Below are positions 14,361 to 30,663 of a stretch of DNA of 64,000 bases, one piece after another. A program made the position numbers and the translations under genes. Source of the stretch: Pseudodesulfovibrio sp. Its GTDB lineage: Bacteria > Desulfobacterota > Desulfovibrionia > Desulfovibrionales > Desulfovibrionaceae. Every line of letters begins with the position of its first letter. Positions within the stretch are counted from its first letter, which is position 1. The notes beneath the pieces were generated by a model. The model was not told where the DNA came from and did no database searches. It worked only from the letters and a program-made list of their open reading frames with translations. Location: the NCBI GenBank assembly GCA_016342345.1, contig JAEINO010000003.1, forward strand, positions 62,001 through 126,000. Reading direction: 5' to 3'.

Positions 14361-14655
14361 GAGAGAGCCAGCAACGCCTGCGGCGTGGCTTCCAAAGTTC
14401 GTAATTGCCCTTCCGGCGGAGTTCGTTTCTTTTTCCAAAGCAAAAAAGAAAGAACCAAAGAAAAGTGCTTTTTTCTAGCTTGGCCGCAGGCCGTTCAAGC
14501 CGAGAATCTGATCAAAGCGGGTCGGCTCCATCCCACGAAAGGTCTAGGCTATTGCTCCCCGTACCATGCCCGTTCAAAAAAACATATCGGGCCACCTCAC
14601 CGGAGCCACCTCCTCCGCTTTGTCAGCTTCTAAGCCTTGAAAGGCTTAACGCTAG
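14361..14655 (+). repeat. Structured repeat type A, left copy 1
   Basis: First of four tandem, same-orientation copies. Order of elements: a short hairpin ACGCC-TGC-GGCGT, the conserved CCTTCCGGCGGAG block, a long Y/R hairpin (GTTC-TTTCTTTTT pairing with AAAAAGAAAGAAC), the AGCTTGGCCGC-AGGCC hairpin, AATCTGATCAAAGCGGGTCG, and the terminal TAAGCCTTGAAAGGCTTA palindrome followed by ACGCT. The first two hairpins differ in sequence from copies 2-4 but keep their pairing. The short reading frame across it is also read across every other copy and is regarded as non-coding. Confidence 0.85.
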
Positions 14656-14733
14656 GGGGAGGGTGGTAAATTTTTGGATGAGATGTTGGAAAGCAGTAAG
14701 AAAGAAAAGGGGAGATAAAAAAGGGAAAAGAAT

Positions 14734-15020
14734 GAGCCGGTCGAACCTGCGGTTCTTACTCCATGTTTTGAAATGCCCTTCCGGCGGAGGTACTTTCTTT
14801 TAGAGGCCGAAAAGAAAGTACCCAAAGAAACTGCCTTTACTAGCTTGACCGCATGCCGTTCAAGCCGAGAATCTGATCAAAGCGGGTCGGCTCCAACTCA
14901 TGAAAGGTCTAGGCTATTCCTCCCCGTACAATGCCGGTTTATCAAAACTTATCGGGCCGCCCCACCGGAGCCACCTCCTCCGCTTTGTCAGCTTCTAAGC
15001 CTTGAAAGGCTTAACGCTAG
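14734..15020 (+). repeat. Structured repeat type A, left copy 2
   Basis: The first hairpin is GAACC-TGC-GGTTC, and the second is TACTTTCTTTT pairing perfectly with AAAAGAAAGTA. The body matches copy 1. Copies 2 and 3 are exactly 365 bp apart start to start, including the purine-rich spacer (about 80 bp) between copies. Confidence 0.87.
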
Positions 15021-15098
15021 GGGGGAGGGTGGTGGATTTTTGGATGAGATGTTGGAAAGCAGTAAGAAAAAAAAGGGGAGATAAAAAAGAGAAAAAAA

Positions 15099-15386
15099 GA
15101 GCCGGTCGAACCTGCGGTTCTTACTCCATGTTTTAAAATGCCCTTCCGGCGGAGGTACTTTCTTTTAGAGGCCGAAAAGAAAGTACCCAAAGAAACTGCC
15201 TTTTCTAGCTTGGCCGCAGGCCGTTCAAGCCGAGAATCTGATCAAAGCGGGTCGGTTCCATCCCATGAAAGGTCCAGGCTATTCCTCCCCGCACAATGCC
15301 AGTTCAAAAAAACATATCGGGCCACCTCACCGGAGCCACCTCCTCCGCTTTGTCAGCTTCTAAGCCTTGAAAGGCTTAACGCTAGG
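15099..15386 (+). repeat. Structured repeat type A, left copy 3
   Basis: Same head and body as copy 2, with scattered substitutions in the loop regions and intact stems. The spacer to copy 4 is almost identical to the spacer between copies 1 and 2, which indicates recent tandem duplication of a roughly 365-bp unit. Confidence 0.87.
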
Positions 15387-15463
15387 GGGAGGGTGGTAAA
15401 TTTTTGGATGAGATGTTGGAAAGCAGTAAGAAAGAAAAGGGGAGATAAAAAAGGGAAAAGAAT

Positions 15464-15751
15464 GAGCCGGTCGAACCTGCGGTTCTTACTCCATGTTTTG
15501 AAATGCCCTTCCGGCGGAGGTACTTTCTTTTAGAGGCCGAAAAGAAAGTACCCAAAGAAACTGCCTTTTCTAGCTTGGCCGCATGCCGTTCAAGCCGAGA
15601 ATCTGATCAAAGCGGGTCGGTTCCATCCCATGAAAGGTCCAGGCTATTCCTCCCCGCACAATGCCAGTTCATCAAAATTTATCGGGCCACTCCACCGGAG
15701 TCGCCTCCTCCGCTTTGTCAGCTTCTAAGCCTTGAAAGGCTTAACGCTGGG
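15464..15751 (+). repeat. Structured repeat type A, left copy 4
   Basis: Last of the tandem array. It carries the TACTTTCTTTT/AAAAGAAAGTA hairpin and ends at the AAGCCTT-GA-AAGGCTT palindrome followed by ACGCTGGGGAGG. About 105 bp of unique sequence follows before the small membrane protein gene. Confidence 0.87.
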
Positions 15752-15855
15752 GAGGGGGAACAACTGACTGCAAACACTCTGACTTATCCGCTCGAAACTA
15801 TCAAAAGCGGAGTTCTATAAAATTTGCTATGCCTCTTCAAAAAAGGAGACACCTC

Positions 15856-16212
15856 ATGGAAAAGATTTTGCTTATTGTTCTTGGTGCGTTTATTGGCGCA
15901 GTCCCAACCCTCATTATGGGGTGGATGAATCTTAAAGCCACAAAAGAAAGGCATATGAGGGAGCTTGGTTTGAAAATGGCCCTTGCGGAATACAAAGTAC
16001 ATACCGACCTTGTTGTTGCAAAAGGGAAGGGCAAGTTCTCTCCGCCTAGTGCCTATCTCGCACCGGCATATCAAAGTGTTCTTAAGCTCATGGATACTAA
16101 TTTGAGCACAACTGATTTCGACAAAGTATATACGGACTTGGCCGAAATTGCGCGCGAGAACAGCAAGGCCGCTGAGGAAAGTCTCCCTAAAGCGAAAGGA
16201 AAAGACAACTAA
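15856..16212 (+). CDS. Small membrane-anchored protein of unknown function
   Basis: A 118-residue protein with a single N-terminal hydrophobic segment (MEKILLIVLGAFIGAVPTLI) and a charged, mostly helical remainder ending in a lysine-rich tail. AAAAGGAG 9 nt before the ATG at 15856 is a strong ribosome binding site and decides the start over an in-frame upstream ATG. I do not recognise a family. It is enclosed by repeat cluster A on the left and type B repeats on the right, and has lower GC than the surrounding housekeeping genes, which suggests accessory origin. Confidence 0.7.
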   Translation: MEKILLIVLGAFIGAVPTLIMGWMNLKATKERHMRELGLKMALAEYKVHTDLVVAKGKGKFSPPSAYLAPAYQSVLKLMDTNLSTTDFDKVYTDLAEIARENSKAAEESLPKAKGKDN

Positions 16213-16339
16213 CAACTGCATTTCGTCCCTACTAATTTTGAAAACGTTATGTCTGTGCTGCTTTCTTGTTAACTCAACCCTATGGAGGGTTCCGCACCTG
16301 TGCCCTTGGCACACATTCTTAAAAAAACAAGGAGCCTTT

Positions 16340-16411
16340 ATGGCCCACCTCCACGCCCTTGCGGTGATTTTACAATCATTGCTTTTGATCGTTGAGATAG
16401 CTCGCGACTAA
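16340..16411 (+). CDS. 23-residue hydrophobic peptide ORF
   Basis: A short frame MAHLHALAVILQSLLLIVEI plus three residues (ARD) with a strong AAGGAG ribosome binding site 6 nt from the ATG. Almost the whole peptide is one hydrophobic helix. Two small hairpins (AACCCT-ATGG-AGGGTT and GTGCC-CTT-GGCAC) lie in the 75 bp upstream. The layout resembles small membrane peptides such as type I toxins, but no family match can be claimed. It sits between repeat types A and B, as does the peptide at 28579-28668. Confidence 0.5.
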   Translation: MAHLHALAVILQSLLLIVEIARD

Positions 16412-16606
16412 AGCGGGCAATAGTGTGAACCTCAATGGGCACAAGCGGGCCTGCGGAACCTTCCTTCTTTCTTTCTTTTCACATCAACTGCTTATCAATC
16501 AGTAGAAAAAAACCTCACGATGCCATTCCGTGTTCAAAGGCATTACTTCGGCATTCTGAAGAACCAATTTCTTCAAAACACTCTTTCGCTAAAAAGTCCC
16601 TCCCAA

Positions 16607-16812
16607 GCATTAACCGCTCAGTCGGTTTAGAAGCTGACCAAGAGGGCGAACAGCCCGATTGGATCAGATTCTTATACCAGTGAGCGCAGCGGCCAAGCTA
16701 GAAAGCCGAGTTTTTTTGGTTCTTTTTTGGGGCGGCTCAGCCAAAAAAGAACCCCGCCGGGAGGGCAATTTCAAAACGGGAGCAAGAACCGCAGGTTCGA
16801 CCGGATCTCTCT
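16607..16812 (-). repeat. Structured repeat type B, left copy 1
   Basis: Read on the minus strand it has the same architecture as type A but a different terminal stem: AACCG-ACTGAG-CGGTT in place of AAGCCTT-GA-AAGGCTT. The Y/R hairpin is GGTTCTTTTTTGG pairing with CCAAAAAAGAAC. The interval 16412-16606 before it holds no recognisable feature. Confidence 0.8.
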
Positions 16813-16910
16813 TCCTCTTCTCTCTTTTCCCACGAACCCATCAATCACAGATAATTTTCAACTTAACCCTCACCCCTCTTCCAACCTCACCATCAAAGAC
16901 ACCTCCCAAG

Positions 16911-17115
16911 CATTAACCGCTCAGTCGGTTTAGAAGCTGACCAAGAGGGCGAACAGCCCGATTGGATCAGATTCTTATGCCAGTGAGCGCAGCGGCCAAG
17001 CTAGAAAGCCGAGTTTTTTTGGTTCTTTTTTGGGGCGGCTCAGCCAAAAAAGAACTCCGCCGGAAGGGCAATTTCAAAACGGGAGCGAGAACCACAGGTT
17101 CGACCGGCTCTCTCT
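16911..17115 (-). repeat. Structured repeat type B, left copy 2
   Basis: Nearly identical to the copy about 300 bp to its left, including the unusual duplicated context CCTCCCAAGCATTAACCGC at its edge. Together the two copies form a tandem pair in the orientation opposite to the type A array. No coding capacity is believed. Confidence 0.8.
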
Positions 17116-17241
17116 TCCTCTTTTCCTCATCTTCTCCCATTCCCCCGTCCCCGTCCCCGTCCCCCAACAAAAAAAGGCCGACACCCCATCCGGGCTGCCG
17201 ACCATATTCTTCCCCAAAAAAACAAAAAATCTAAATCAAAC

Positions 17242-17451
17242 TTACGCCTTCTTCAAAAAGCAGGTCTTCAAAACCACCACCGACTTACCGACCTTGCATT
17301 CCACGGCATCCGGCTTTGAAGTCAGACGAATATTCTTGACCGCCGTACCCCGTTTCAAGGTCTTGGACATACCCTTGATCTTCAAATCCTTGATGACCGT
17401 GACATCATCGCCGTCATTCAACTCAGTGCCGTTGCTATCCTTAACATCCAT
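17242..17451 (-). CDS. Short YjdM/PhnA C-terminal domain protein
   Basis: A 69-residue cytoplasmic protein matching the C-terminal domain of the YjdM (formerly PhnA) family: DSNGTELNDGDDVTVIKDLK, then KGMSKTLKRGTAVKNIRL and a closing KTCFLKK. The N-terminal zinc ribbon of full-length members is absent; stand-alone versions of this domain occur in many bacteria. Despite the old name, no phosphonate role is established. An SD-like GGAGAAGC precedes the ATG. It lies just upstream of proA on its other side, and 60 bp separates its start from the proA stop. Confidence 0.85.
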   Translation of the reverse strand: MDVKDSNGTELNDGDDVTVIKDLKIKGMSKTLKRGTAVKNIRLTSKPDAVECKVGKSVVVLKTCFLKKA

Positions 17452-17512
17452 TATGCTTCTCCATAATCAATTAAATATACATCAAATACTCAACCGCTAA
17501 ATCTCACCCCGA

Positions 17513-18772
17513 TCATTCCCTGATCTGCCCTTCACCCATCAGGACAAACTTCGCACTCGTCAACTCCTTGATCCCCATGGGACCATACGCATGAAGCTTG
17601 GACGTGGAAATTCCGATCTCGGCACCAAGCCCGAGCTGCCCGCCATCATTGAACCGGGTGCTGGCATTGGCAACCACCAGTGAGGCATCGACCTCGCGAA
17701 TAAACCGCATGCAATGCCTGTATTCTTCGCTCAGAATCGATTCTGTATGGTTGGAACCATGCTCGGCGATATGATCCACGGCTTCATCCATGTCATCCAC
17801 GACCTTCACGGCCAGAATCAAATCAAGAAATTCATATCCCCAATCCTGCGGCTTGGCTGCTTCTGCGTATTCACCCAACAAGGGCAACGATTCGGGGCAC
17901 GCCTTGAACGTAACACCCTTGGGACCGAGTGCCTGGGCGACCTTTGGCAGCAGCACCCCGGCAACGTCCTTGTGGACAAGCAGACATTCGAGCGCATTGC
18001 ACCCGCTGGGGTATTGCATCTTGGAATTCTCGATAATGGGAACGCCCTTGGTTATGTCGCAGGATGCATCGGCAAATATATGGCAGACGCCCTTGTAATG
18101 TTTGAGAACCGGCATGGTGGCCTGTTCGGTAACGGCACGAATGAGGCCTTCGCCGCCACGCGGGATGACCACATCAATATAATCGGCCAGCTTGAGCATT
18201 TCGGTCACAGCCTCGCGGTCCGCAGTGGGCGGAACCTGAACAGCAGCAACGGGCAGACCGGCCTTTTCCAATGCCTTGTGCATCAGGTCAGCAAGACAGG
18301 CGTTGGAATGAAAAGCCTCTGAACCGCCGCGCAGAATAACGGCATTACCAGCCTTGAGACAGAGAATGCCAGCATCCACAGTGGCGTTGGGCCGGGATTC
18401 GTAAATCATGGCGACAACTCCGAGTGGAACACGCATTCGACCGACCAGCATGCCATTTGGCCGCTTGGTCATGGATTCGATTTCACCGACAGGATCAGCC
18501 ATGGCCGCGACCTCGCGGCAGCCCTGAATCATGGAATTCAGCACCTTTTCGCTGATGGTCAGTCGCTGAACGCGAGCCTTGTCCAACCCTCGTTCGGCAG
18601 CAGCAGCCAGGTCCTTGCCGTTGGCAATACCAATGGCCTCGCTTTCCGACTCCAACAAATCCGCCAGAATCAGCAGAGCGTCCTGCTTGGCTTTGCCGGA
18701 TGCCTTTGCCAGCCCTCGAGCCGCAACCTTGGCACGCTTGCCCATTTCCACCATTTGTTCACGAATATCCAT
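17513..18772 (-). CDS. proA: Gamma-glutamyl phosphate reductase
   Basis: Second enzyme of proline biosynthesis: reduces gamma-glutamyl phosphate to glutamate semialdehyde with NADPH. The 419-residue protein has the aldehyde-dehydrogenase fold, with RVPLGVVAMIYESRPNATVD, LKAGNAVILRGGSEAFHSN (in part) and the catalytic-cysteine region MQYPSGCNALECLLVH. The C-terminal GLGAEIGISTSKLHAYGPMG is the ProA family hallmark. The start at 18772 has AAGGAGCAGAC upstream. No proB is adjacent. Confidence 0.96.
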   Translation of the reverse strand: MDIREQMVEMGKRAKVAARGLAKASGKAKQDALLILADLLESESEAIGIANGKDLAAAAERGLDKARVQRLTISEKVLNSMIQGCREVAAMADPVGEIESMTKRPNGMLVGRMRVPLGVVAMIYESRPNATVDAGILCLKAGNAVILRGGSEAFHSNACLADLMHKALEKAGLPVAAVQVPPTADREAVTEMLKLADYIDVVIPRGGEGLIRAVTEQATMPVLKHYKGVCHIFADASCDITKGVPIIENSKMQYPSGCNALECLLVHKDVAGVLLPKVAQALGPKGVTFKACPESLPLLGEYAEAAKPQDWGYEFLDLILAVKVVDDMDEAVDHIAEHGSNHTESILSEEYRHCMRFIREVDASLVVANASTRFNDGGQLGLGAEIGISTSKLHAYGPMGIKELTSAKFVLMGEGQIRE

Positions 18773-18999
18773 GTCTGCTCCTTGAAACTGTCGAAAATTC
18801 GCCAGACCGAACAATATTCATGCCTGACCGGTTCATTTGCTAACCTTGAGCACAGGGAAAAGTCAAACCGCACACGGTTTTTCCCCGCACACAACAGAGC
18901 CAGAATTCCATCAATTTGATCTTTTTGTAAATTCAGAACGCGGTTCTTGAACAAAATAGTTGATTTTGTCCACTTTGCCTCTGCTTTTCAAAATAGGAT

Positions 19000-19028
19000 T
19001 TGACCTTTTTTACAATTTTGCTTATCAA
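19000..19028 (+). promoter_or_regulatory. Candidate sigma-70 promoter for the TPR-iorAB genes
   Basis: TTGACC, a 17-nt spacer and TATCAA. The predicted transcript starts near 19035, immediately before the hairpin at 19036-19066. The remainder of the 332-bp divergent region between proA and the TPR gene shows no other clear feature. Confidence 0.45.
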
Positions 19029-19035
19029 GCGCATT

Positions 19036-19078
19036 GCGTTGGAGAGCCTCATTTCTCCGACAACGCACCCCTTTTTTT
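19036..19078 (+). terminator. Terminator-like hairpin in the 5' leader
   Basis: GCGTTG-GGAGA pairs with TCTCC-GA-CAACGC, followed by ACCCC and seven T residues. This has the shape of an intrinsic terminator but lies in the leader, ending 26 nt before the start codon of the TPR gene, and just after a predicted transcription start. It could be an attenuator, a 5'-protective stem, or a terminator for upstream antisense transcription. Confidence 0.5.
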
Positions 19079-19104
19079 CACCTTCATGGAGGAACTCGAA
19101 ACCA

Positions 19105-19758
19105 ATGGCTGAAAACAATACCCCCCAACAGGCTGTCCTTGAAGAAGTAGAGGCACAAGCTCCGCAGAGCATGCACCCCATTCTCGAAGCCGCTTTCAAA
19201 TACCAAAAGCAGCTCATCATCACAGTCGTAGCCATTATCACCGCAGCCGCTATTTATGCGGGTATCAACGCCTACAATACAAAAGCGGAAGTCACGGCTC
19301 AGGCCAATCTCGGCACCATTCTCATCGAGGCCACCGGCCAGGAAAAGATCAAGAGACTGGAAGAACTGCTTGGCATGGTTCCGTCTTCAGTCACCCCCGC
19401 AGTGCAGCTTGAGCTTGCCCAATCGTGCATGACCCTTGGCGAATACGACAAGGCCGCCGACTACTGGAACCAGCTTGTGGGCAACACTGACAATGACATG
19501 CAGATTGTCGCACGTCTGGGCAAGGCCAAAAGCCTCTTGCTCGGCGGAAAGACAACGGAAGCCTTCACGGAACTCAAAGATCTTGCAGGCATTGCCCCGG
19601 AATCATTCATTATCCCGGTCTATCGTCAACTGGCACTGACCGCAGAACTCACAGGCAATACAGACGAAGCACTGAATGCATATCGCACGCTCAGCGAAAA
19701 ACAGATCAGTGACAAGCCTTTCATCGATTACAAAATATCTCAACTGGAAGCCAAGTAA
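19105..19758 (+). CDS. YfgM-like membrane-anchored TPR protein
   Basis: A 217-residue protein with a cytoplasmic N-terminus, one membrane segment (about residues 37-57) and a periplasmic tetratricopeptide region (for example AQSCMTLGEYDKAADYWNQL and NTDEALNAYRTLSEKQ). This topology matches YfgM/YfgM-like proteins that act as periplasmic chaperone partners of the SecYEG translocon, but sequence identity to those was not tested. The start MAENNTPQQ is preceded by GGAGGAAC. It lies 32 bp upstream of iorA and may be cotranscribed with it. Confidence 0.8.
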   Translation: MAENNTPQQAVLEEVEAQAPQSMHPILEAAFKYQKQLIITVVAIITAAAIYAGINAYNTKAEVTAQANLGTILIEATGQEKIKRLEELLGMVPSSVTPAVQLELAQSCMTLGEYDKAADYWNQLVGNTDNDMQIVARLGKAKSLLLGGKTTEAFTELKDLAGIAPESFIIPVYRQLALTAELTGNTDEALNAYRTLSEKQISDKPFIDYKISQLEAK

Positions 19759-19790
19759 CCGCGTTTCACGCATTTATATGGAGATGTAAT

Positions 19791-21626
19791 ATGGCACATC
19801 CGCTCCTGGCCGACACACCCGGCGAAACCCACCTCCTCCTCGGCAACGAAGCTATTGTCCGGGGAGCCATTGAGGCAGGCGTGCAGGTCGTCACCTGCTA
19901 TCCCGGTACACCGTCGTCCGAAGTACCCGATACATTATTTCGAATTTCCCCTGAGGGAAAATACTACTTTGAATACTCCGTCAATGAAAAGGTCGCCCTT
20001 GAAGTTGCCGGAGGAGCCACCCTGGCCGGAGCCATGACGCTGTGCACCATGAAGCACGTAGGCGTCAACGTTGCCGCCGATCCGTTGATGACCTTGTGCT
20101 ACACCGGCACACCCGGCGGTCTTGTACTGCTGTCATCCGACGATCCGGGCTGTCATTCCAGCCAGAACGAACAGGACAACCGCTACTACGCCCGCATCGC
20201 AGGCATGCCTGTGCTGGAGCCTGCAACGGCTCAGGAAGCCAAGGACATGACCCGTGACGGTCTCACTCTGTCCAAAAAACACGGCGCACCGTTCATGCTG
20301 CGCACCACCACCCGCGTCAATCACCTTCGCGGTTCCGTGGTCTATGGGCCAGCTCCTGATCCGGGCAAAGCCGAAGGTTTCAAACGCAATCCTTCCAAAT
20401 TCGTTCCCATCCCGGCTTTTTCCCGGCCCATGCACGTGGCCCTGCTGGAACGCCTGGAAGCCCTACGTGAAGAAGCAGAAAATTCACCTTACAACACTGT
20501 TTCCGGCTCCGGCGAGTTCGGCATCGCATGCAGTGGCATCAGCCGCGCCTACGTAGCAGACGCTCTGGAAATTTCCGGTCTCAAGGACAAATGCAAGGTC
20601 CTTGAACTCGGATTCAACAACCCGCTGCCGGAAAGAATGTGCCTTGATTTCCTGAAATCCATTTCCACTCTCGTTGTCGTTGAAGAACTTGAGCCTATCC
20701 TGGAAAACGAACTGCGGGTTCTGGCCCAGAAAAACAATCTCGACATCACGATCATCGGAAAGGGCGCACTGCCTCGCAACGGCGAATTCAGCGTCACCAT
20801 GGTCGAGAACGTCATCCGCGAAATGCTCGGCGAACCTGCCAAGGCCCAGGACCTCTGTGCCGCAGCCCAACTGCCCATGCGTCCGCCGAACCTTTGTGCC
20901 GGTTGCCCGCATCGCGGAACCTATTTTGCGGCCAAGAAAGTCTTTGGCGAGGATGCCGTCTATTCGTCCGATATCGGCTGTTACACACTGGGCATTCTGC
21001 CTCCGCTCCAGGCTGCCGATTTCCTTATCTGCATGGGGTCATCGATCTCCGCAGGTGGCGGTGTTGCCAAGGCATCCGGCCAGACCGTGGTCGCCTTCAT
21101 CGGCGATTCCACTTTCTTCCATTCCGGCCTGAGCGGTGTGGCAAACGCTGTTTTCAACAGCCATGATGTCCTGCTCGTTGTACTCGACAACCGCACCACG
21201 GCAATGACAGGCCACCAGCCGAACCCCGGCGTGGACAAGACAGTCATCGGCGATAACGACCATCCCCTGAGCATCGAAAGTGCTGTCCGCGGCCTGGGTG
21301 TCACGGAAGTACGCACGGTCAACCCCTTCAACCAGAAGAAAACCGTAGCCGCTCTTGAGGAACTCAAGGCAATGACGGGAGTGCGCGTGCTCATCGCCAA
21401 GGAGCCCTGTCCGCTCTTTACCCGCCGGGTCTACAAGAAGGTCGCACCACAGGTCGCCTACGTGGCCGAATCCTGCACAGGCCGATTTGACTGTCTGGAA
21501 AAGCTGGCCTGTCCTGCCATGTACAAAGATGGCAACAAGGCTGCTGTCAATCCAATCCTGTGTAACGGCTGCATGCTCTGCTTGCAGATTTGTGGACACA
21601 TCAAAGCGAAGAAAAGGGGCAGCTAA
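19791..21626 (+). CDS. iorA: Indolepyruvate:ferredoxin oxidoreductase, alpha subunit
   Basis: Catalytic subunit (611 residues) that oxidatively decarboxylates aryl pyruvates from aromatic amino acids to aryl-CoA, reducing ferredoxin. It has the N-terminal pyrimidine-binding domain (LLGNEAIVRGAIEAGVQVVT...), the TPP-binding region (CAGCPHRGTYFA; GDSTFFHSGLSG; NRTTAMTGHQPNPG) and a C-terminal ferredoxin-like domain. The last cluster motif CNGCMLCLQIC is intact, whereas the first is irregular (CTGRFDCLEKLACP, spaced CX5CX5C). SD GGAGATG precedes the ATG. It is expressed with iorB, whose ATG follows directly after the stop codon. Confidence 0.95.
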   Translation: MAHPLLADTPGETHLLLGNEAIVRGAIEAGVQVVTCYPGTPSSEVPDTLFRISPEGKYYFEYSVNEKVALEVAGGATLAGAMTLCTMKHVGVNVAADPLMTLCYTGTPGGLVLLSSDDPGCHSSQNEQDNRYYARIAGMPVLEPATAQEAKDMTRDGLTLSKKHGAPFMLRTTTRVNHLRGSVVYGPAPDPGKAEGFKRNPSKFVPIPAFSRPMHVALLERLEALREEAENSPYNTVSGSGEFGIACSGISRAYVADALEISGLKDKCKVLELGFNNPLPERMCLDFLKSISTLVVVEELEPILENELRVLAQKNNLDITIIGKGALPRNGEFSVTMVENVIREMLGEPAKAQDLCAAAQLPMRPPNLCAGCPHRGTYFAAKKVFGEDAVYSSDIGCYTLGILPPLQAADFLICMGSSISAGGGVAKASGQTVVAFIGDSTFFHSGLSGVANAVFNSHDVLLVVLDNRTTAMTGHQPNPGVDKTVIGDNDHPLSIESAVRGLGVTEVRTVNPFNQKKTVAALEELKAMTGVRVLIAKEPCPLFTRRVYKKVAPQVAYVAESCTGRFDCLEKLACPAMYKDGNKAAVNPILCNGCMLCLQICGHIKAKKRGS

Positions 21627-22226
21627 ATGAATGATATCAAGCCCATCCGTATATTCATGACCGGTGTCGGAGGTCAGGGAACCCTGACCGCAACCACCCT
21701 GCTCGCCAAGACCGTGCTGAGCCAGGGATTGCCCGTCACATCCGGCGAGATTCATGGCATGGCCCAGCGTGGCGGCGTTGTGGAATCAACTGTGCTCATC
21801 GGATGCAAATCTCCGAAGATAGACCACGGCGAAGCCGACCTTCTCCTGGGATTCGAACCCATTGAGACGCTTCGTGCACTGCCGTATCTCAAGCCCGGCG
21901 GACTGGTGCTTTCCAGTACCGAATTCATGCCCCCCATGTCTGTTGCCATGGGCAAGCAGGAATGCCCGGACATCGAGGATATCAAAAAACAGATCGCGGC
22001 CTGCACCGACGATGCCTATTACATGGCCAACCAGACAATAGGTATCGAAGCAGGAGCCATGCAGAGCGGCAATGTTGCCATGCTCGCCGCATTGTGTGCA
22101 TCAGGCAAACTGCCCTTTGGCCCGGAAGCTCTGGAAGCAACCATCAAGGCAAATTTGCCGGAAAAACTTCAAGCCATCAACCTCAAGGCACTTGAGCTTG
22201 GTGTTGCCGCCGTGCAAAACGCATAG
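21627..22226 (+). CDS. iorB: Indolepyruvate:ferredoxin oxidoreductase, beta subunit
   Basis: The 199-residue gamma-type domain subunit of IorAB. Family features are IFMTGVGGQGTLTATTLLAK, SGEIHGMAQRGGVVESTVLIG (in part) and the NQTIGIEAG segment. Its start codon abuts the iorA stop codon. Together the two subunits let the cell ferment or assimilate aromatic amino acids with ferredoxin as the electron acceptor. Confidence 0.95.
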   Translation: MNDIKPIRIFMTGVGGQGTLTATTLLAKTVLSQGLPVTSGEIHGMAQRGGVVESTVLIGCKSPKIDHGEADLLLGFEPIETLRALPYLKPGGLVLSSTEFMPPMSVAMGKQECPDIEDIKKQIAACTDDAYYMANQTIGIEAGAMQSGNVAMLAALCASGKLPFGPEALEATIKANLPEKLQAINLKALELGVAAVQNA

Positions 22227-22251
22227 CGAACTCTTGGGAAAGCAGCTTCCG

Positions 22252-22425: not shown

Positions 22426-22439
22426 TATAGGAAGGAACA

Positions 22440-24032: not shown

Positions 24033-24045
24033 GACAATCAGAACC

Positions 24046-24080
24046 AGCCCCCTGCCGAATCCACGGTCGGGGGCTTTTCA
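24046..24080 (+). terminator. Intrinsic terminator after the sigma-54 activator
   Basis: AGCCCCC (24046-24052) pairs with GGGGGCT (24069-24075), followed by TTTCATT. Confidence 0.7.
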
Positions 24081-24169
24081 TTACAGACGATCTCCCAAGG
24101 ACACGCAACGGACACGGCTCGACCAGACACTTCCGGGGGAAATCGGAATATTGAAAGTCTGTTTTCCAT

Positions 24170-24203
24170 AAAAAAAGACGACCGGGTTTCCCTGGCCGTC
24201 TTG
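24170..24203 (-). terminator. Intrinsic terminator for the SLOG-like gene
   Basis: On the minus strand GACGGCCAGGG pairs with CCCGGTCGTC around a short A-rich loop and is followed by seven T residues. Confidence 0.8.
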
Positions 24204-24225
24204 AATTATCAAACAGATATCAGTC

Positions 24226-24777
24226 TTACTTGAAAGATCGGACAAACAGCTCCTCAAGAGCTTTCTTGCCATTCTCTTCCAGAAAACGGGTACCGGTTCC
24301 AGTGACATGCCTGTCGGTAATGACCGGATTCTCGACAGTGATCCACTCGCCCTTTTCCCACTTGAACCAGCCATTTTTCTTCTGGCCGAAAACATACAGG
24401 GCCTTGTTGCAAATCTTGGCAAACTCTGCGCCCCAGCCAGTGCCGCCCTTGACCGTGCCGTCTTCCTGAATGGTGCCGACAACAAAGACTTCGTGACCTG
24501 ATTCAACCTGATACATGATAGTCTGGAGAACCTTGCGCATCTTCTCCGCATTGGTGAACTTGCGGCCCAGCAATTTGGAAACGTAGGTGAGGCTGACATC
24601 TTTTCTGGCCAACTCCTCGTTGGTCAGAAACCGGACGCCACGAGTACGGGAAATCTTATGGCCTTCAAATGTGTAATTGACTTCAGCCAGTCCGTACTGT
24701 TCAGCCAAACGGCCAAATTCAGACTCGGCACCCTGGGCACCACCGCTGAAAAGAGTGTAGGATTCAAACTTGGACAT
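24226..24777 (-). CDS. SLOG/Rossmann-like protein of unknown function
   Basis: A 183-residue soluble protein. The N-terminal YTLFSGGAQGAESEFGRLAE and the central VESGHEVFVVGTIQ and GGTGWGAEFAKICNKALYVF segments have the glycine-rich layout of SLOG (Smf/DprA-LOG) nucleotide-binding folds, with a TGTGTRFLEENGKKAL motif near the end. The start MSKFESYTL at 24777 has AAGGAGA upstream. It is a single gene with its own terminator. Members of the superfamily bind or cleave nucleotides; the ligand here is unknown. Confidence 0.65.
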   Translation of the reverse strand: MSKFESYTLFSGGAQGAESEFGRLAEQYGLAEVNYTFEGHKISRTRGVRFLTNEELARKDVSLTYVSKLLGRKFTNAEKMRKVLQTIMYQVESGHEVFVVGTIQEDGTVKGGTGWGAEFAKICNKALYVFGQKKNGWFKWEKGEWITVENPVITDRHVTGTGTRFLEENGKKALEELFVRSFK

Positions 24778-24909
24778 GCATTCTCCTTGGATATGGTGTC
24801 GAAATACCGTTGCCATTTATAGAATTATTTTTGGGTACTATGCACTGGCAGGCGCACCGTAGCAATGGCATCTGCTATTTTTTTTTGGGAAAATCCACCT
24901 TTTTTTCCG

Positions 24910-24970
24910 ATTATACTGTAATGACATATTTACATTGTCAATATAAGTAAACAAATTATACAGTAATAAC
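24910..24970 (+). promoter_or_regulatory. Operator-like repeats upstream of the thiaminase-like gene
   Basis: Two 16-nt direct repeats, ATTATACTGTAATGAC (24910-24925) and ATTATACAGTAATAAC (24955-24970), differ at two positions and are 45 bp apart. Between them lies the inverted pair TGACA/TGTCA (24922-24940). TTGTCA (24935-24940), 16 nt and TATACA form a possible promoter overlapping the second repeat. The coding start is at 24993 with GGAGAAA upstream. This layout suggests control by a dimeric repressor or activator. Confidence 0.5.
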
Positions 24971-24992
24971 AGCAAGTTCAAATGGAGAAAAC

Positions 24993-26342
24993 ATGCTATC
25001 AAAAAAATCATTCCCACTGATCATTGCCCTCATTTTCACCTTTCTTTTCATCACAACGGCCTGCGCAAAGCAGACATTGACTGTCGGGCTATATCCTGAC
25101 GTACCACGCATTGAGCAATTCAAATCAGTCATTGAAGCCGAATGGAAGAAAATCGAACCGGATGTTGCCATCACATGGGACGAAAAATGGGGCGGTGGCT
25201 ATGAAGCCGATCCTGCAGACACTCTTGATGTCTATGTATTTGATACACTGTACCTGACCTATTTCAACGCACAAGGATTGCTTTACAACATACCCAAAAA
25301 TCAGGTGAACAACTACGAAGACTTCCTGAGCTACGCCAAAGCAGGGGTCAGTAGCGGAGACAATGTTCTCGGAATTCCACAACTCGGTTGCACCACGGTT
25401 CTTTTCTATCGCTCAGACGACAAGGCCATGGCAGCGGCCACAACTCTCGAAGATGTAGCCAAGGCATTGGGAACCTGCACTTATTATCCACAAGTTCCAC
25501 CCGCCAGTGTGGGGCTTATGGCCGATTTCTCCAACGAATCCGCAAATGCCGGATATTACATCCAAAGCCTTCAATGCGACAAAAACCAATGGCCAGTCTC
25601 CCTCCCTTATGACGAATCCGAAATTGACACCAAAATCATTAATTACATCAAACAGGTCATCGGCATGTCCAGCTTTCAAGATGCACTTACCGAGGCCCCG
25701 ATATCCTACCAACGCGGTACATGGTTCGGCCAGGGACATGGTCGTGCCTACATAGGCTACTCGGAGTCCGTGTCCACCATTCCCGAAAACCAATACGACA
25801 CCATCTCGGTCAAGGTTATGCCCTGGGCCAACAACACGGAAGGCATCGCCGCGCCACTTTTCTACTCCGACGTCATCGGCGTCAACACGTCCACACAGAA
25901 ACGGGGCACCACCGAACTTGCCATTAAACTGGCCAACCTCATGGCGTCTGCCGATATTCTTGTCCAGTGCCTCGGCCCCTACGAAGGCAAAGGCCCGCAA
26001 TATCTCATCCCCGCACGCAACTCTGCCTTTCAGGCCTTGAGTGCTGACCACCCGATGTACCAAAAGATATACGACATGGTCGACTCCACAAGCCCCATCA
26101 TGTTCGACGCTGGGCCAGATGCACGCAACTGGTTCAACATCATGCAGAAACCGCTTACAATCGACTACAAGGCCGACCCGACATGCTATACCGATATCCC
26201 GGCCAAAGGGGGATTTATCCCGGACAACGCAGCGGCACAGACCATCTGCCCTGACACATGCCAAAACTACAACGGCTGGAGCGGGCAATGGACAAACATC
26301 GTGACTCCGTCCGTTTGCGGATGCAACACCCCCCGTCAATAG
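24993..26342 (+). CDS. Secreted thiaminase-I-like / periplasmic binding protein-fold protein
   Basis: A 449-residue exported protein with a signal peptide (cleavage near TTACA; Cys24 could be a lipidation site, though the -3 residue is atypical). The mature part has the type II solute-binding fold (QTLTVGLYPDVPRIEQF...). GIPQLGCTTVLFYRSDD puts Cys133 where bacterial thiaminase I has its nucleophile, and RAYIGYSESVS puts Glu258 125 residues later; in Paenibacillus thiaminase I the Cys113-Glu241 spacing is 128. This supports a thiamine pyridinylase or relative over a plain transport protein. No transporter genes are adjacent, unlike for a true ABC binding protein. The C-terminus is Cys-rich (TICPDTC, SVCGCN). 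Transport or thiamine-binding without catalysis remains possible. Confidence 0.6.
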   Translation: MLSKKSFPLIIALIFTFLFITTACAKQTLTVGLYPDVPRIEQFKSVIEAEWKKIEPDVAITWDEKWGGGYEADPADTLDVYVFDTLYLTYFNAQGLLYNIPKNQVNNYEDFLSYAKAGVSSGDNVLGIPQLGCTTVLFYRSDDKAMAAATTLEDVAKALGTCTYYPQVPPASVGLMADFSNESANAGYYIQSLQCDKNQWPVSLPYDESEIDTKIINYIKQVIGMSSFQDALTEAPISYQRGTWFGQGHGRAYIGYSESVSTIPENQYDTISVKVMPWANNTEGIAAPLFYSDVIGVNTSTQKRGTTELAIKLANLMASADILVQCLGPYEGKGPQYLIPARNSAFQALSADHPMYQKIYDMVDSTSPIMFDAGPDARNWFNIMQKPLTIDYKADPTCYTDIPAKGGFIPDNAAAQTICPDTCQNYNGWSGQWTNIVTPSVCGCNTPRQ

Positions 26343-26365
26343 AAGACCGCAGACCTGTCCCACTC

Positions 26366-26396
26366 AAAGGCCGCATCAAGCGGCCTTTCTTATTTT
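26366..26396 (+). terminator. Intrinsic terminator after the thiaminase-like gene
   Basis: AAAGGCCG and CGGCCTTT form an 8-bp stem around CATCAAG, followed by CTTATTTT. Confidence 0.75.
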
Positions 26397-26408
26397 GACA
26401 CGCTCATA

Positions 26409-26464
26409 TTGACACGCACTGTCCTCATGCATATTTAATATAAATGATAATAATATCTATTCTC
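26409..26464 (+). promoter_or_regulatory. Promoter and Fur/PerR-like box upstream of msrAB
   Basis: TTGACA (26409-26414) is followed after 17 nt by TATTTA. At 26446-26464 the sequence GATAATAATATCTATTCTC, read on the minus strand, matches 13 of 19 positions of the Fur box consensus GATAATGATAATCATTATC; an oxidative-stress regulator of the Fur family (PerR) would fit the target. It ends 7 nt before the ribosome binding site GGAGG. Confidence 0.4.
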
Positions 26465-26483
26465 ATATTTGGAGGCGGTTATC

Positions 26484-27590
26484 ATGACAAAAAAAAACTT
26501 CTTAATGACTCTGGCAGGTATTCTGACGCTGATTGTCGGACTTACAATGATCGGAAATACGGCACCCGAGGAGAAGATAATGACTGACACTAAAACGATT
26601 GAGATAGCCACGATTGCTGGCGGCTGTTTCTGGTGCGTGGAGTCTGACATGGAAAAGCTGCCGGGCGTGATCAAGGCCGTGTCCGGGTATGCTGGCGGCC
26701 AGGAGGAAAACCCTTCTTATGACCAGGTTTCAAGCGGAGCAACCAGCCATAGGGAAGCTGTACAGGTCCATTTCGACCCTGCACAAATTTCCTTTGCTCA
26801 GGTGCTTGACCATTTCTGGAAGCATTTCGACCCCACGGACGAAGGCGGTTCCTTTGGTGACAGAGGATCTCAATACACTTCCGGTATATTCTATCACGAT
26901 GAAAATCAGCGCGAAATAGCCGAGGCATCACGGAAGTCACTTGACGAATCAGGCCGATTCACCAGGCCCATGATCACCCCCATCATCGAATTCACCAGCT
27001 TCTACGAGGCCGAAGGCTATCATCAAGACTACTACAAAAAGAATCCGGTCAGGTACAAGACCTACCGCTATTTATCAGGCCGCGACAGCTTTGTGGAAAA
27101 GATCTGGGGAGACGAGTTAACGCCCACGACCAAGTCGAGTTCCAATATGCAAGAGTTCGTCAAGCCGGACGATGAGACACTCAAGGAGATGCTCACGCCA
27201 CTGCAATACAAGGTCACGCAGGAAGAAGGCACCGAGCAGCCCTTCAGCAACAAGTACTGGGACAACAAGCAGGATGGAATCTATGTGGATATCGTTTCAG
27301 GCGAACCTCTGTTCTCCTCCGCAGACAAGTTCAAATCCGGCACCGGCTGGCCGAGCTTCACCCGACCACTGGTTTCAGAAAATATTGTAGAGAAGAAAGA
27401 CAAAGGTCTTTTCATGGTTCGAACGGAAATCAGAAGCAAAAAGGGAGACTCGCACCTGGGACATGTCTTTGACGATGGCCCGCAACCGACCGGACTCAGA
27501 TATTGCATAAATTCCGCTTCACTCAGGTTCATAGCCAAGGAAAATCTGAAAAAGGAAGGATACGGTAATTTCCTAGTCCCCTCTAACTAG
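26484..27590 (+). CDS. msrAB: Exported methionine sulfoxide reductase MsrA-MsrB fusion
   Basis: A 368-residue bifunctional enzyme that reduces both the S and R epimers of methionine sulfoxide. Residues 1-28 form a signal peptide or membrane anchor, so it should act in the periplasm. The MsrA domain has GGCFWC (catalytic Cys48), KAVSGYAGG and EGYHQDYY. The MsrB domain, from about residue 225, has [19 protein letters not shown] and the catalytic [11 protein letters not shown]; zinc-binding CxxC pairs are absent. The start at 26484 has GGAGG 8 nt upstream. For an anaerobe this points to repair of oxidised envelope proteins during oxygen exposure. Confidence 0.95.
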
Positions 27591-27615
27591 TCGAAAACAT
27601 GACCATATAAATACG

Positions 27616-27641
27616 GAGAGCCACTCTAAAGAGCGGCTCTC
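27616..27641 (+). terminator. Hairpin after msrAB
   Basis: GAGAGCCACTC pairs with GAGCGGCTCTC (one mismatch) around TAAA. An A-rich run, rather than a T run, follows on the plus strand, so termination efficiency is uncertain. Confidence 0.5.
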
Positions 27642-27691
27642 AATATTAAATAAAAAAAATAAAATAAATTTGATTTTATGCAAAAAACCTC

Positions 27692-27887
27692 TTGACAAGT
27701 CACAAATATTGGCAGATTAAATCTTTTAAATACACCAGTGGCACCCGTGGAGGCGCAGTCAGAATGTGGCCGGCGCTGGTTAAAAGGAAACAAAGTATAT
27801 TGAGGAGCAGCGTGCATCTTGTACACTGTTCCTTTTTTATTGACGCACGGGCGTCATATTTTAATCACTGATTTTAGGAGAAATTGA
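27692..27887 (+). promoter_or_regulatory. Promoter and long structured leader of the RRM gene
   Basis: A perfect TTGACA (27692-27697) and GATTAA 17 nt later form a candidate promoter. The predicted leader of about 165 nt contains GC-rich stretches and a TGACGC-ACGG-GCGTCA hairpin (27840-27855) followed by ATATTTT, 30 nt before the ATG. Long leaders that fold differently in the cold are typical of cold-induced RNA-binding protein genes; that behaviour is inferred here. Confidence 0.45.
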
Positions 27888-28151
27888 ATGTCCAAAAAAT
27901 TGTATGTCGGTAACCTGTCCTGGTCCTCTACTGAAGATGAAGTTCGCGCAGCTTTCGAAGCTTATGGCGAAGTCACCTCTGTCAAACTGATCGAAGATCG
28001 TGAGACAGGCCGCCCCCGCGGTTTCGGTTTCGTGGAAATGGATGATGCCGGTGCTCGCGAAGCAATCGACAACATGGATGGCAAGGATTTCGGCGGCCGC
28101 AACATTAAGGTCAACGAAGCCAAGCCCCGCGAAGAACGCCCTCGGTGGTAG
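27888..28151 (+). CDS. Small RRM-type RNA-binding protein
   Basis: An 87-residue single RNA recognition motif. RNP2 is LYVGNLSW and RNP1 is RGFGFVEM, with the conserved aromatic residues that stack on RNA bases. A short Arg/Glu-rich tail (KPREERPRW) follows. It is like the cyanobacterial and proteobacterial Rbp proteins, which act as cold-induced RNA chaperones. AGGAGAAATTG precedes the ATG, and a clear terminator follows, so the gene is monocistronic. Confidence 0.95.
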   Translation: MSKKLYVGNLSWSSTEDEVRAAFEAYGEVTSVKLIEDRETGRPRGFGFVEMDDAGAREAIDNMDGKDFGGRNIKVNEAKPREERPRW

Positions 28152-28184
28152 GTTCTGTTTTTAAGCCATAATACGGCTTTTCGT

Positions 28185-28220
28185 GCCCGTCTTGCTCTCG
28201 CAAGGCGGGCACTTTTTTTT
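28185..28220 (+). terminator. Intrinsic terminator of the RRM gene
   Basis: GCCCGTCTTGC and GCAAGGCGGGC form an 11-bp stem (one mismatch) with a TCTC loop, followed by a run of eight T residues after AC. Confidence 0.9.
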
Positions 28221-28252
28221 GGGCTTTCTGAGGAAAGAGAAAGAAGAAGAAA

Positions 28253-28456
28253 GAGCCGGTCGAGCCTTCGGTTCTTGCTCCAAGTTTGGAAATGCCCTTC
28301 CGGCGGAGGCACTTTCTTTTAAAGGCCGAAAAAAAAGTGCCCAAAGAAACGGCCTTGCACAAACTTGGCCGCTGCGCTCACTGGCATAAGAATCTGATCC
28401 AATCGGCCTACTCGTCCTCTTGGTCAGCTTCTAAACCGACTGAGCGGTTAATGCTG
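28253..28456 (+). repeat. Structured repeat type B, right copy
   Basis: Inverted relative to the two type B copies at 16.6-17.1 kb. First hairpin GAGCC-TTC-GGTTC (one G-U pair). The second is CACTTTCTTTT with AAAAAAAAGTG, where the closing pair is C-G instead of the T-A of type A. The terminal stem is AACCG-ACTGAG-CGGTT followed by AATGCT. The segment 28457-28578 downstream contains no gene that I can support. Confidence 0.82.
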
Positions 28457-28578
28457 GGAAGGATATTTTAGCAAAAATATTTTGAAGAATTAAGTTCTTC
28501 AACGTGCCGGACCACTGTCCCTTTAACAAGGAAGGGATGATTTAAGCTGCATTTCTATTAATAAATAGTGCATTTGAA

Positions 28579-28668
28579 TTATTTGTTACGGCGATTTATC
28601 CACGCCCGAAACTCTTTTGAAATTGCAACGACAAGACGAAGAAACACTACAAAATCGGGTAAGTCCAT
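28579..28668 (-). CDS. 29-residue hydrophobic peptide, type I toxin-like
   Basis: The peptide begins MDLPDFVVFLRLVVAISKEF and ends RAWINRRNK: a hydrophobic helix followed by a Trp and a basic tail. An AAGGAG ribosome binding site lies 8 nt before the ATG. Length, helix and the W..RRNK end resemble type I toxin peptides (Fst/Ldr/TisB-like layout), but this is pattern similarity only. A possible promoter TTGAAG-N17-TACTGT lies about 75 nt upstream. The AT-rich stretch 28669-28867 holds this leader and nothing else that I recognise. No antitoxin RNA was identified. Confidence 0.5.
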   Translation of the reverse strand: MDLPDFVVFLRLVVAISKEFRAWINRRNK

Positions 28669-28867
28669 GATCGGTCTCCTTAAGAATTTTTACGTTTCAA
28701 AGGAAAACGCGATCACTGACGCTTTACAGTAGCGACAGCATGCCCCTGCTTCAACACTTGTTTCAATTCAAGATTATGTCATTGAAAATACAGATTAAAT
28801 TTAATCGAGTACAAAATGAACAACATTTTCAAAATCAATTAACCTTCCGCCTAAAACACCCCCCCCC

Positions 28868-29152
28868 CAGCGTTAAGCCTTTCAAGGCTTAGAAGCTGAC
28901 AAAGCGGAGGAGGTGGCTCCGGTGAGGTGGCCCGATATGTTTTTTTGAACGGGCATGGTACGGGGAGCAATAGCCTAGACCTTTCGTGGGATGGAGCCGA
29001 CCCGCTTTGATCAGATTCTCGGCTTGAACGGCCTGCGGCCAAGCTAGAAAAGGCAGTTTCTTTGGGTACTTTCTTTTCGGCCTCTAAAAGAAAGTACCTC
29101 CGCCGGAAGGGCATTTCCAAACTTGGAGCAAGAACCGCAGGTTCGACCGGCT
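28868..29152 (-). repeat. Structured repeat type A, right copy 1
   Basis: Minus-strand copy with the GAACC-TGC-GGTTC head and the TACTTTCTTTT/AAAAGAAAGTA hairpin. It is preceded on the plus strand by a run of nine C residues. The body is nearly identical to left copies 1 and 3, but in inverted orientation across 14 kb. Confidence 0.87.
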
Positions 29153-29249
29153 TTTCTTCCTCTTTTTCCTATCAATCTTCATCGCGGGCAAAAGAATAAA
29201 GACAATATGGGATGCAGCCTGCGCTGCTATAAAAAATAAACAAAGAGTT

Positions 29250-29511
29250 TGATTCACCCCGTCCTGGGGTTCACCCCTTCGGGGCGTTGGCAGGAACCAA
29301 CGTCCAAATCCGCTGTCCTGCGGATTTGTCGCACCTCCGGCACGACTTACTTTTGGGCCAAAGCGACCAAAAGTAAGCAAAAGTCGCTTTTTTTGCGCTG
29401 TGATCCTGTCCGCGATGGCTAAGAGCCGCTAACACGCTTCTCTGCCCTCCAAGATATCCGGGACCCGAACGCTTTCCGGGCTACACTCCGCGTGTCAACC
29501 GGCTCTAAGCC
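29250..29511 (+). repeat. Hairpin-rich element, type C
   Basis: Successive hairpins: CCCC-GTCCT-GGGG, CCCC-TT-CGGGG, CGTTGG-CAGGAA-CCAACG (29285-29302), CAAATCCGC-TGTCCT-GCGGATTTG (29305-29328), and CTTACTTTTGG with CCAAAAGTAAG (29346-29377) followed by CAAAAG. It ends in a 22-nt imperfect inverted repeat (29417-29437 with 29490-29511). The Y/R hairpin plus repeated CAAAA tail mirrors the second hairpin of types A and B, so it may be a distant relative. No coding capacity. Confidence 0.7.
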
Positions 29512-29643
29512 CCTGCTCTCATTGGTCGTCTTTGTAAGAAATGTTGAATATGGTGTGCTTGGATTAGATATGAAAACATTGGAAGAACGCTTGTTTTTTC
29601 CAGCCTTTTGGATTTCGAAATATCAATGCCGTTTCGTTTCCCT

Positions 29644-29929
29644 CAGCGTTAAGCCTTTCAAGGCTTAGAAGCTGACAAAACGGAGGAGGTGGCTCCGGTG
29701 GGGTGGGCCGATATGTTTTTTTGAACGGGCATGGTACGGGGAGCAATAGCCTAGACCTTTCGTGGGATGGAGCCGACCCGCTTTGATCAGATTCTCGGCT
29801 TGAACGGCCTGCGGCCAAGCTAGAAAAGGCAGTTTCTTTGGGTACTTTCTTTTCGGCCTCTAAAAGAAAGTACCTCCGCCGGAAGGGCATTTCAAAACAT
29901 GGAGTAAGAACCGCAGGTTCGACCGGCTC
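29644..29929 (-). repeat. Structured repeat type A, right copy 2
   Basis: Has the TACTTTCTTTT/AAAAGAAAGTA head, like left copies 2-4. The outer flank towards right copy 3 carries the same roughly 80-bp spacer (reverse complement of the purine-rich GGGGAGATAAAAAAGGG stretch) as between the left copies. Confidence 0.87.
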
Positions 29930-30009
29930 ATTCTTTTCCCTTTTTTATCTCCCCTTTTCTTTCTTACTGCTTTCCAACATCTCATCCAAAAATTTACCAC
30001 CCTCCCCCC

Positions 30010-30300
30010 AGCGTTAAGCCTTTCAAGGCTTAGAAGTTGACAAAGCGGAGGAGGCGGCTCCGGTGGGGTGGGCCGATATGTTTTTTTGAACGGGCATGGT
30101 ACGGGGAGCAATAGCCTAGACCTTTCGTGGGATGGAGCCGACCCGCTTTGATCAGATTCTCGGCTTGAACGGCCTGCGGCCAAGCTAGAAAAAAGCACTT
30201 TTCTTTGGTTCTTTCTTTTTTGCTTTGGAAAAAGAAACGAACTCCGCCGGAAGGGCAATTACAAACTTTGGAAGCCACGCCGCAGGCGTTGCTGGCTCTC
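30010..30300 (-). repeat. Structured repeat type A, right copy 3
   Basis: Carries the alternative head seen in left copy 1 (ACGCC-TGC-GGCGT and the GTTC...GAAC Y/R hairpin) joined to the standard type A body. This shows that heads and bodies are exchanged between copies. Confidence 0.87.
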
Positions 30301-30370
30301 TCTTCCTTCTTACATCTTCCATCCCATCTTTTCCTTCTTACTCCTTCCCAACCTTCCGCCTACCCCCCCC

Positions 30371-30663
30371 CAGCGTTAAGCCTTTCAAGGCTTAGAAGCT
30401 GACAAAGCGGAGGAGGTGGCTCCGGTGAGGTGGCCCGATATGTTTTTTTGAACGGGCATGGTACGGGGAGCAATAGCCTAGACCTTTCGTGGGATGGAGC
30501 CGACCCGCTTTGATCAGATTCTCGGCTTGAACGGCCTGCGGCCAAGCTAGAAAAAAGCACTTTTCTTTGGTTCTTTCTTTTTTGCTTTGGAAAAAGAAAC
30601 GAACTCCGCCGGAAGGGCAATTACGAACTTTGGAAGCCACGCCGCAGGCGTTGCTGGCTCTCT
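30371..30663 (-). repeat. Structured repeat type A, right copy 4
   Basis: Same head as left copy 1 and right copy 3. The head-to-body sequence is almost identical to left copy 1 (14361-14655) over about 290 bp, in opposite orientation, making the pair a long inverted repeat about 16 kb apart. Confidence 0.87.

Follow-up and report, generated by a model that had tools for sequence, protein, structure and literature searches.

Inward-facing, pseudoknot-bearing repeats as candidate ends of exchangeable cassettes in Pseudodesulfovibrio

The window analysed here, a stretch of 64,000 nucleotides (nt) from a Pseudodesulfovibrio sp. genome (assembly GCA_016342345.1, contig JAEINO010000003.1, positions 62,001 to 126,000 of the forward strand), carries a family of large, folded intergenic repeats that are probably the ends of genus-wide, non-autonomous and exchangeable cassettes used in trans. 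The fold of these elements covaries, they are paired tail to tail, the cargo between them is AT-rich and varied, and different cargo is found between the same ends. A first-pass annotation of the window had described eleven copies, eight of type A and three of type B. Each was found at its position, but a twelfth, divergent copy of type 2, at about 29255-29512, had been overlooked. It had also escaped notice that the elements pair in inverted orientation, that a second type exists and that genes lie between them.

Central to the proposal is the arrangement of the elements in facing pairs, whose tails point inward to an enclosed spacer or gene. The first cassette of the window consists of four A copies, a gene of 127 amino acids (aa) and two reversed B copies, and the second pair of a B copy, a gap with a reading frame of at most 29 aa and a reversed A copy. 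Arrays in three relatives' loci, read by eye, follow the order [1>]m, spacer, [<2]n, where m and n are one or more, and the inverted arms around cargo are 45-192 nt long and 73-96% complementary at the five loci examined. In the G001 stretches read, all eight pairs with both tails recognised are compact and gene-free, with tails 156-172 bp apart, the left tail of a ninth going unrecognised. The A copies stand in tandem with a step of 362-365 bp, and all eight can be aligned from the hairpin P1 to the tail over 229-232 nt with 40 variable sites. Heads and tails appear to be swapped between element types, judging by locus L035, where by eye a type-2-like head is joined to a type-1 tail.

Different cargo between the same ends is seen at a locus shared by genomes G024 (L080) and G163 (L265), where one flank with its end is 98.2% identical over 2.0 kb and the other 98.4% over 6.7 kb. 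Between the tails, G024 carries OLD (591 aa, ~1.8 kb) and G163 a dGTPase (487 aa, ~1.6 kb), two cargos with no common stretch of more than 20 bases. The breakpoints are at the tails, the BLAST limits of the shared sequence falling 24 nt past TCTA in the left end and, in the right end, 34 nt away from it. At a second locus (L269/L276), within flanks that are 99.4% identical, G163 has a type-1 copy and an extra type-2 copy missing from G024; five further loci compared with new G024 stretches (the L270-L275 set, six in all) showed small gaps or none, and none of the loci compared showed a whole pair missing at strain level. In G019 the mean identity of left and right ends within a cassette (0.75, 13 cassettes) hardly exceeds that between cassettes (0.72). 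Between species, the window site is accessory and is unoccupied in several relatives. Here a 433-aa gene at 17513-18814 is separated from its neighbour by the array and a small gene; judging by their motifs, we take the two to be proA and nadD. Among 30 loci read, the gap between the two genes measures 112-207 bp in nine and 389-1338 bp in eight, and nadD was not seen within the stretch covered at 12 other loci and in the source genome of the window.

To count as a cargo pair, two inward tails had to enclose an open reading frame (ORF) of at least 80 aa and no other tail. Twenty-seven pairs were collected, namely two from the source genome (the window and L018), three from G167 (L033, L034, L035), 18 from G019 (L036, L037, L038, L204-L218) and one each from G024 (L080), G163 (L265), G004 (L184) and G103 (L187), so that the locus L080/L265, being one locus in two genomes, stands in the set twice. 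The 29-aa window pair was excluded from the count, as were L186 and L188-L195, whose outer ends enclose further elements or have an ambiguous partner; for three proteins of L188, neither Pfam nor PADLOC gave a match. Two cases between tails that point the same way were also left out, namely L039, with a 299-aa protein (L039:6297-7196) that has a below-cut-off match to the putative phage structural family NF053583, and the small SNase-like nuclease gene of L034 (L034:3389-3808, PF00565).

At least one protein from every pair was scanned with PADLOC, and at E < 1e-10 nine of the 27 pairs matched known or candidate anti-phage families. These are OLD (L035 and L080), the TIR candidate PDC-S35 (L037), a kinase (L038), AbiU (L184), dCTP deaminase (L210), PDC-S06 together with a weaker PrrC match (L212), PDC-S31 (Pfam DUF2971; L213) and the 487-aa dGTPase of L265 (3.5e-63), it being understood that the kinase and AAA models are broad and that candidate families are unproven defences. 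Four more pairs passed a Pfam cut-off, with HEPN in L033, L207 and L208 and Mrr_cat in L209, and no transposition genes were found among the cargo proteins scanned against Pfam. Overall, the cargo is AT-rich, varied and foreign-like, and the GC content of the payload lies below that of the flanks in 15 of 15 and 12 of 12 comparisons (one of the latter being the 29-aa window pair) and again in the G163 case. The 127-aa cargo of the window has a homologue in the L214 cassette (43% identity over 120 aa); Pfam offers no family for either protein, and PADLOC gives a weak match of the window protein to PD-Lambda-6 (2e-4).

The ends are held together by a common plan, read from 64 distinct type-1 elements, which runs from a purine-rich leader through head hairpins, the hairpin P1 and P2, a pyrimidine/purine (Y/R) hairpin, to an A-rich linker, a strand pairing with the P2 loop and, last, the hairpin P3. 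The loop of P2 and the stretch after the A-rich linker form a pseudoknot, and P3 is a long imperfect hairpin (AGAATCTGATC.../...GTCAGCTTCTA) whose apex varies in length. That changes in the stems of the elements are compensated and pairing is kept, as the first-pass annotation had proposed, is borne out against shuffled sequences, against slid partners and across species; the stems that it had named are present as sequence, but the best covariation lies in other helices, the pseudoknot and P3. The single variable pair of P1 is T-A in 16 and C-G in 47 of 63 elements, with no mismatch, and the pseudoknot occurs in variants as different as GGCC/GGCC, GCGC/GCGC, GGGG/CCCC, GGAG/CTCC, AAGGCCG/CGGCCTT and AAAGCA/TGCTTT. 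Across 32 combinations, partners from the same element reach a mean pseudoknot score of 11.9 versus 6.6 for swapped partners, and a score of at least 11 is attained by 28 own partners (in two of which the script placed P2 elsewhere) versus 31% of swapped ones; two of the 32 combinations have no pseudoknot helix at all.

For covariation over the whole structure, 22 chosen elements were aligned with MAFFT and tested against a structure drawn by hand from these same elements. Here 92.2% of the paired cells can pair, versus 82.7% after shuffling and at most 53.7% with slid partners, and the covariation score is 0.229 versus 0.069 for shuffled alignments and at most 0.073 for slid ones. Changes on both sides are present in four of the four pseudoknot pairs counted and in eight of 15 P3 pairs; the lower Y/R stem was left out of the count because the alignment shifts there. 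RNAalifold, unaided, recovered P3 and, in place of P2, the pseudoknot helix. In a wider set of 109 distinct P3 cores, the pair x1-y1 is Watson-Crick in all 109, in each of the four possible forms (38.6 on average in shuffles, at most 51), x2-y2 in 106 (shuffle maximum 77) and x3-y3 in 100 (shuffle maximum 66). Since related sequences are not independent, such counts are not probabilities; they leave aside two features built into the search pattern, namely the bulged T and the purine that faces the A of TCTA. Covariation of type 2 was not used, its pattern having caught 10 cores only, although a pseudoknot (AAAGCGAC/GTCGCTTT) is possible by eye in the type 2 element at 29255-29512. The folding energy of single copies is weak evidence, with z values of -2.9 for an A copy, -1.9 for a B copy, and -1.4 and -1.1 for a D and a type 2 copy of the source genome.

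The frame beginning MPFRR meets its first stop anywhere from 9 to 90 codons in among the 64 elements, an inconsistency that sustains the earlier description of the short frames as by-products, and the notion of protein-coding repeats was rejected as the frames are not conserved. Covariation and unconserved frames together favour selection for folding over selection for a protein, as had been suggested from the window; whether as RNA or as DNA is a separate matter, taken up below.

How such ends might work can be outlined. Two folded ends with their tails turned inward enclose either a short spacer or between one and three foreign genes, many of them directed against phages, and the cargo would be placed and replaced between the tails. 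The folded ends would be recognised by a recombinase or a host factor acting in trans, and the recognised form could be a single-stranded DNA hairpin with conserved irregularities such as the T.C mismatch, the bulged T and the purine.A mismatch. Homologous recombination among the many similar ends may in addition aid the swapping of cargo and create tandem copies.

Several observations weigh against the proposal of exchangeable cassettes. Ordinary homologous recombination could be the source of the swap, a site-specific step being unproven; in the last 50 nt beside the L080/L265 cargo, identity drops to 44/50 and 45/50 versus 94-98% farther out in the ends, which looks as if a crossover had taken place within the ends. 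No target duplication was noticed, and no mobilising enzyme was found, the tests covering the integron integrase and the Y1 transposase. Gene-free pairs are common. The excess of defence genes is moderate, at nine of 27 pairs versus one of 14 flank proteins at the same PADLOC level (mad2, 1.4e-14), and a single incomplete metagenome-assembled genome (G019) supplied 18 of the 27; it gave 70 tail matches, from which only those pairs already facing inward on one contig were taken. As for the fold, the observed number of pair types was matched by 22 of 500 shuffles of the 22-element alignment, x4-y4 is weaker (56 Watson-Crick of 109, shuffle maximum 44; paired in 60) and x5-y5 stays within the shuffles (68 of 109 versus a maximum of 69). 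Finally, against the reading of the short frames as by-products, the variable sites of the eight A copies, distributed 13/9/18 over codon positions 1, 2 and 3, show a mild excess at the third (18 of 40).

Could the elements instead act as RNA? Paired, structured non-coding RNAs would then insulate, terminate or regulate the genes between them, and the cargo would be kept rather than moved. Pseudoknots that include an A-rich linker are characteristic of folded RNA, and the unaided recovery of the pseudoknot helix by RNAalifold fits this account. So do the purine-rich leaders, the 30 nt before the head averaging 83% purine versus 50% in random 30-mers of the window (source-genome heads from the window and L009-L024), with 22 of 31 leaders at 80% or more. 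The wobble pairs speak on both sides. At x6-x7 they have one polarity only (28 G.T and 0 T.G of 218), as RNA would lead one to expect, yet at x1-x3 they are nearly nil (one of 327 cells), so that RNA and DNA are both possible; across x1-x5 the 5 G.T versus 9 A.C do not indicate a strand, and the near absence of G.U from the best-covarying pairs fits DNA or a strict helix as well as RNA. The frequency of gene-free pairs also stands against a regulatory RNA, as does the lack of any Rfam match at gathering score in the window or in five relatives' loci; far below that score the five loci gave five matches, and of these BLi_r0872, at 28 of 61 bits, overlaps an element. We hold an RNA role of this kind to be possible but rather unlikely. 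Separately, a triple helix of the purine linker with the Y/R stem is conceivable, the linker mirroring the purine strand of P2 in loci such as L042 and L048 (AAAAGAAA...AAAGAAAA).

In the source genome (4.15 Mb, 149 contigs), an A query matched 48 sites and a B query 51, the two sets overlapping. A further sequence type there, D, accompanies type 2 at nine loci spread over seven contigs, often as tandem copies that repeat every ~660-730 bp; its elements are 90-96% identical to the D query. Within the genus, a 16-base P1 pattern was present in 24 of 36 genomes, versus none of 36 for the reversed pattern, which served as a chance control. Outside the genus, the D-type DNA query matched none of 16 genomes from other genera of the order, and a type-2 head pattern matched nine of 149 genomes of the class, all of them Pseudodesulfovibrio. 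A tail pattern run on 395 genomes of the phylum, with the source genome as the sole member of the genus, matched that genome and two single sites elsewhere, which are taken as chance because they are fewer than the reversed pattern yields. Plasmids gave no match, and viral contigs gave none with one pattern; separately, two IMG/VR loci (L102, L103) match a pattern of P1 plus purine linker. Y/R hairpins of a similar kind may also exist in other Proteobacteria.

Along the chromosome, 60 of 73 loci in eight complete genomes fall in the half around the second dnaA, with one beyond 0.7 of the half-length. GC skew of G024 (20 stretches) places the origin at this second dnaA (G024, ~2.54 Mb) and not at the dnaA of the record start, and in the other seven genomes the origin was assumed from the second dnaA. 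Such enrichment, along with mosaic units, alternating orientation and an intergenic setting, recalls chromosomal repeats of the bacterial interspersed mosaic element (BIME) or repetitive extragenic palindromic (REP) kind, which would serve as sites for gyrase or another protein or as terminators, with cargo captured by chance. The foreign-like cargo between tails in 27 pairs does not sit well with capture by chance, the origin bias is absent from G004 and G005 (mean 0.49 and 0.50), the elements are far larger than REPs, and terminator-like sites precede only three of 31 heads under a strict script; this explanation appears improbable. The same script disposed of the impression, gained by eye, that elements always follow a terminator, and a suspected orientation bias by replichore was not upheld on hand reading of G001 and G002 positions.

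A functionless origin, in which template switching (quasi-palindrome correction) perfects the hairpins and gene conversion spreads them in a way that mimics compensated change, would suit the composition of x1-y1 (C-G 49, A-T 40 and no G.U in 109 cores) and the frequent local recombination illustrated by the copy differences at L269/L276, but it seems very improbable, as the T.C mismatch retained in 90 of 109 P3 cores is evidence against plain palindrome correction and the pseudoknot, not being a hairpin, lies beyond its reach.

If the cassette proposal is correct, it should be asked whether the ends belong to a system already described. The integron integrase model TIGR02249 found nothing above cut-off in the 36 genomes of the genus, its weaker matches being present in all 36 and in 14 of 14 control genomes, and an integron was rejected on this result; the elements, moreover, occur as inverted pairs at dispersed loci. 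Likewise, a Y1 transposase or REP-associated tyrosine transposase (RAYT) as a required mover was rejected, as PF01797 has no match in G001-G005 and G015, all of which bear elements; matches are present in the source genome, G006, G009, G010 and others. The resemblance to integron cassettes is one of design, with small genes beside a folded site that is an imperfect hairpin, and one study describes attC as such a hairpin in which extrahelical bases are important for recognition (PMC3053210). Conserved unpaired bases and a variable apex extend the likeness, the comparison being of design and not of attC core sequences. However, the ends here are 200-300 bp long, contain a pseudoknot and form inverted pairs dispersed over the chromosome, whereas an integron has one direct site per cassette and an array by attI; a direct array of gene and attC units was not encountered, attI not having been searched.

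Other repeats offer partial parallels. REPINs (REP doublets forming hairpins), as described in PMC3116915, are extragenic, non-autonomous inverted pairs of hairpin-forming repeats, and an inverted doublet of this sort is what is seen here, but the present ends are much larger, at times have a gene between them, and occur in six genomes that lack a RAYT-type Y1 transposase. Miniature inverted-repeat transposable elements (MITEs) have terminal repeats without a transposase and foldable transcripts, and a figure legend in PMC10969869 mentions MITE-flanked integrons. Terminal inverted repeats without a transposase are likewise found at the five loci examined; in contrast to MITEs, the ends here make up a mosaic pool in which the pseudoknot and P3 are conserved. 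Neither a target duplication nor a parent transposon was noticed, and membership of the MITE kind is possible. Tn7-like transposons carry varied defence genes, according to PMC8649781, and differ in cargo from the cassettes, which hold one to three genes. In its working the arrangement resembles a mobile gene cassette, but the elements are not filed as integron cassettes, REPINs or a known RNA, because a defining feature of each was looked for and not found. No description of them was found in the open-access literature searched, subscription papers and most preprints lying outside its coverage.

It is tempting, if still speculative, to go further and suppose an undescribed kind of exchange, in which paired pseudoknot ends and a putative recombinase acting in trans would allow the genus to swap small phage-defence genes at many sites. 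If the cassette proposal is true, it would provide a handle for new defence genes, since whatever lies between two tails becomes a candidate and many cargos are without a known family. It also poses a directly testable question, namely by what enzyme or host process an end with a pseudoknot is read. More broadly, intergenic repeats dismissed as clutter may organise the exchange of immune genes.

Table 1. Repeat elements and enclosed reading frames of the window.
Feature	Position	Strand	Remarks
Type A element, variant head ACGCC/GGCGT	14363-14655	+	P1 at 14408, tail at 14622; ends by eye
Type A element	14733-15020	+	P1 at 14776, tail at 14987
Type A element	15099-15385	+	P1 at 15141, tail at 15352; fold energy computed
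Type A element, innermost left end of first cassette	15463-15756	+	P1 at 15506, tail at 15717
Cargo gene of first cassette, 127 aa	15829-16212	+	ORF; homologue in L214
Type B element, inner right end of first cassette	16599-16822	-	P1 motif at 16752
Type B element, second right end of first cassette	16902-17125	-	P1 motif at 17055
Type B element, facing the A copy at 28860-29159	28233-28450	+	P1 motif at 28295
Tiny ORF, 29 aa, candidate only, not counted as cargo	28579-28668	-	by eye; between B and A
Type A element	28860-29159	-	P1 motif at 29098
Type 2 element, divergent, facing the A copy at 29636-29935	~29255-29512	+	motifs at 29363 and 29493; limits by eye
Type A element	29636-29935	-	P1 motif at 29874
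Type A element, variant head	30001-30300	-	P1 motif at 30242
Type A element, variant head, outermost	30363-30662	-	P1 motif at 30604

Two minor observations may be added. Two dnaA genes per genome are found in 12 complete or near-complete genomes of the genus, the second copy of G024 falling below the family cut-off. In G004, an insertion sequence of the IS110 family (355 aa, PF02371/PF01548) is inserted in an end element just past the Y/R hairpin (L184, ~480-1650), and IS110 may target these repeats.

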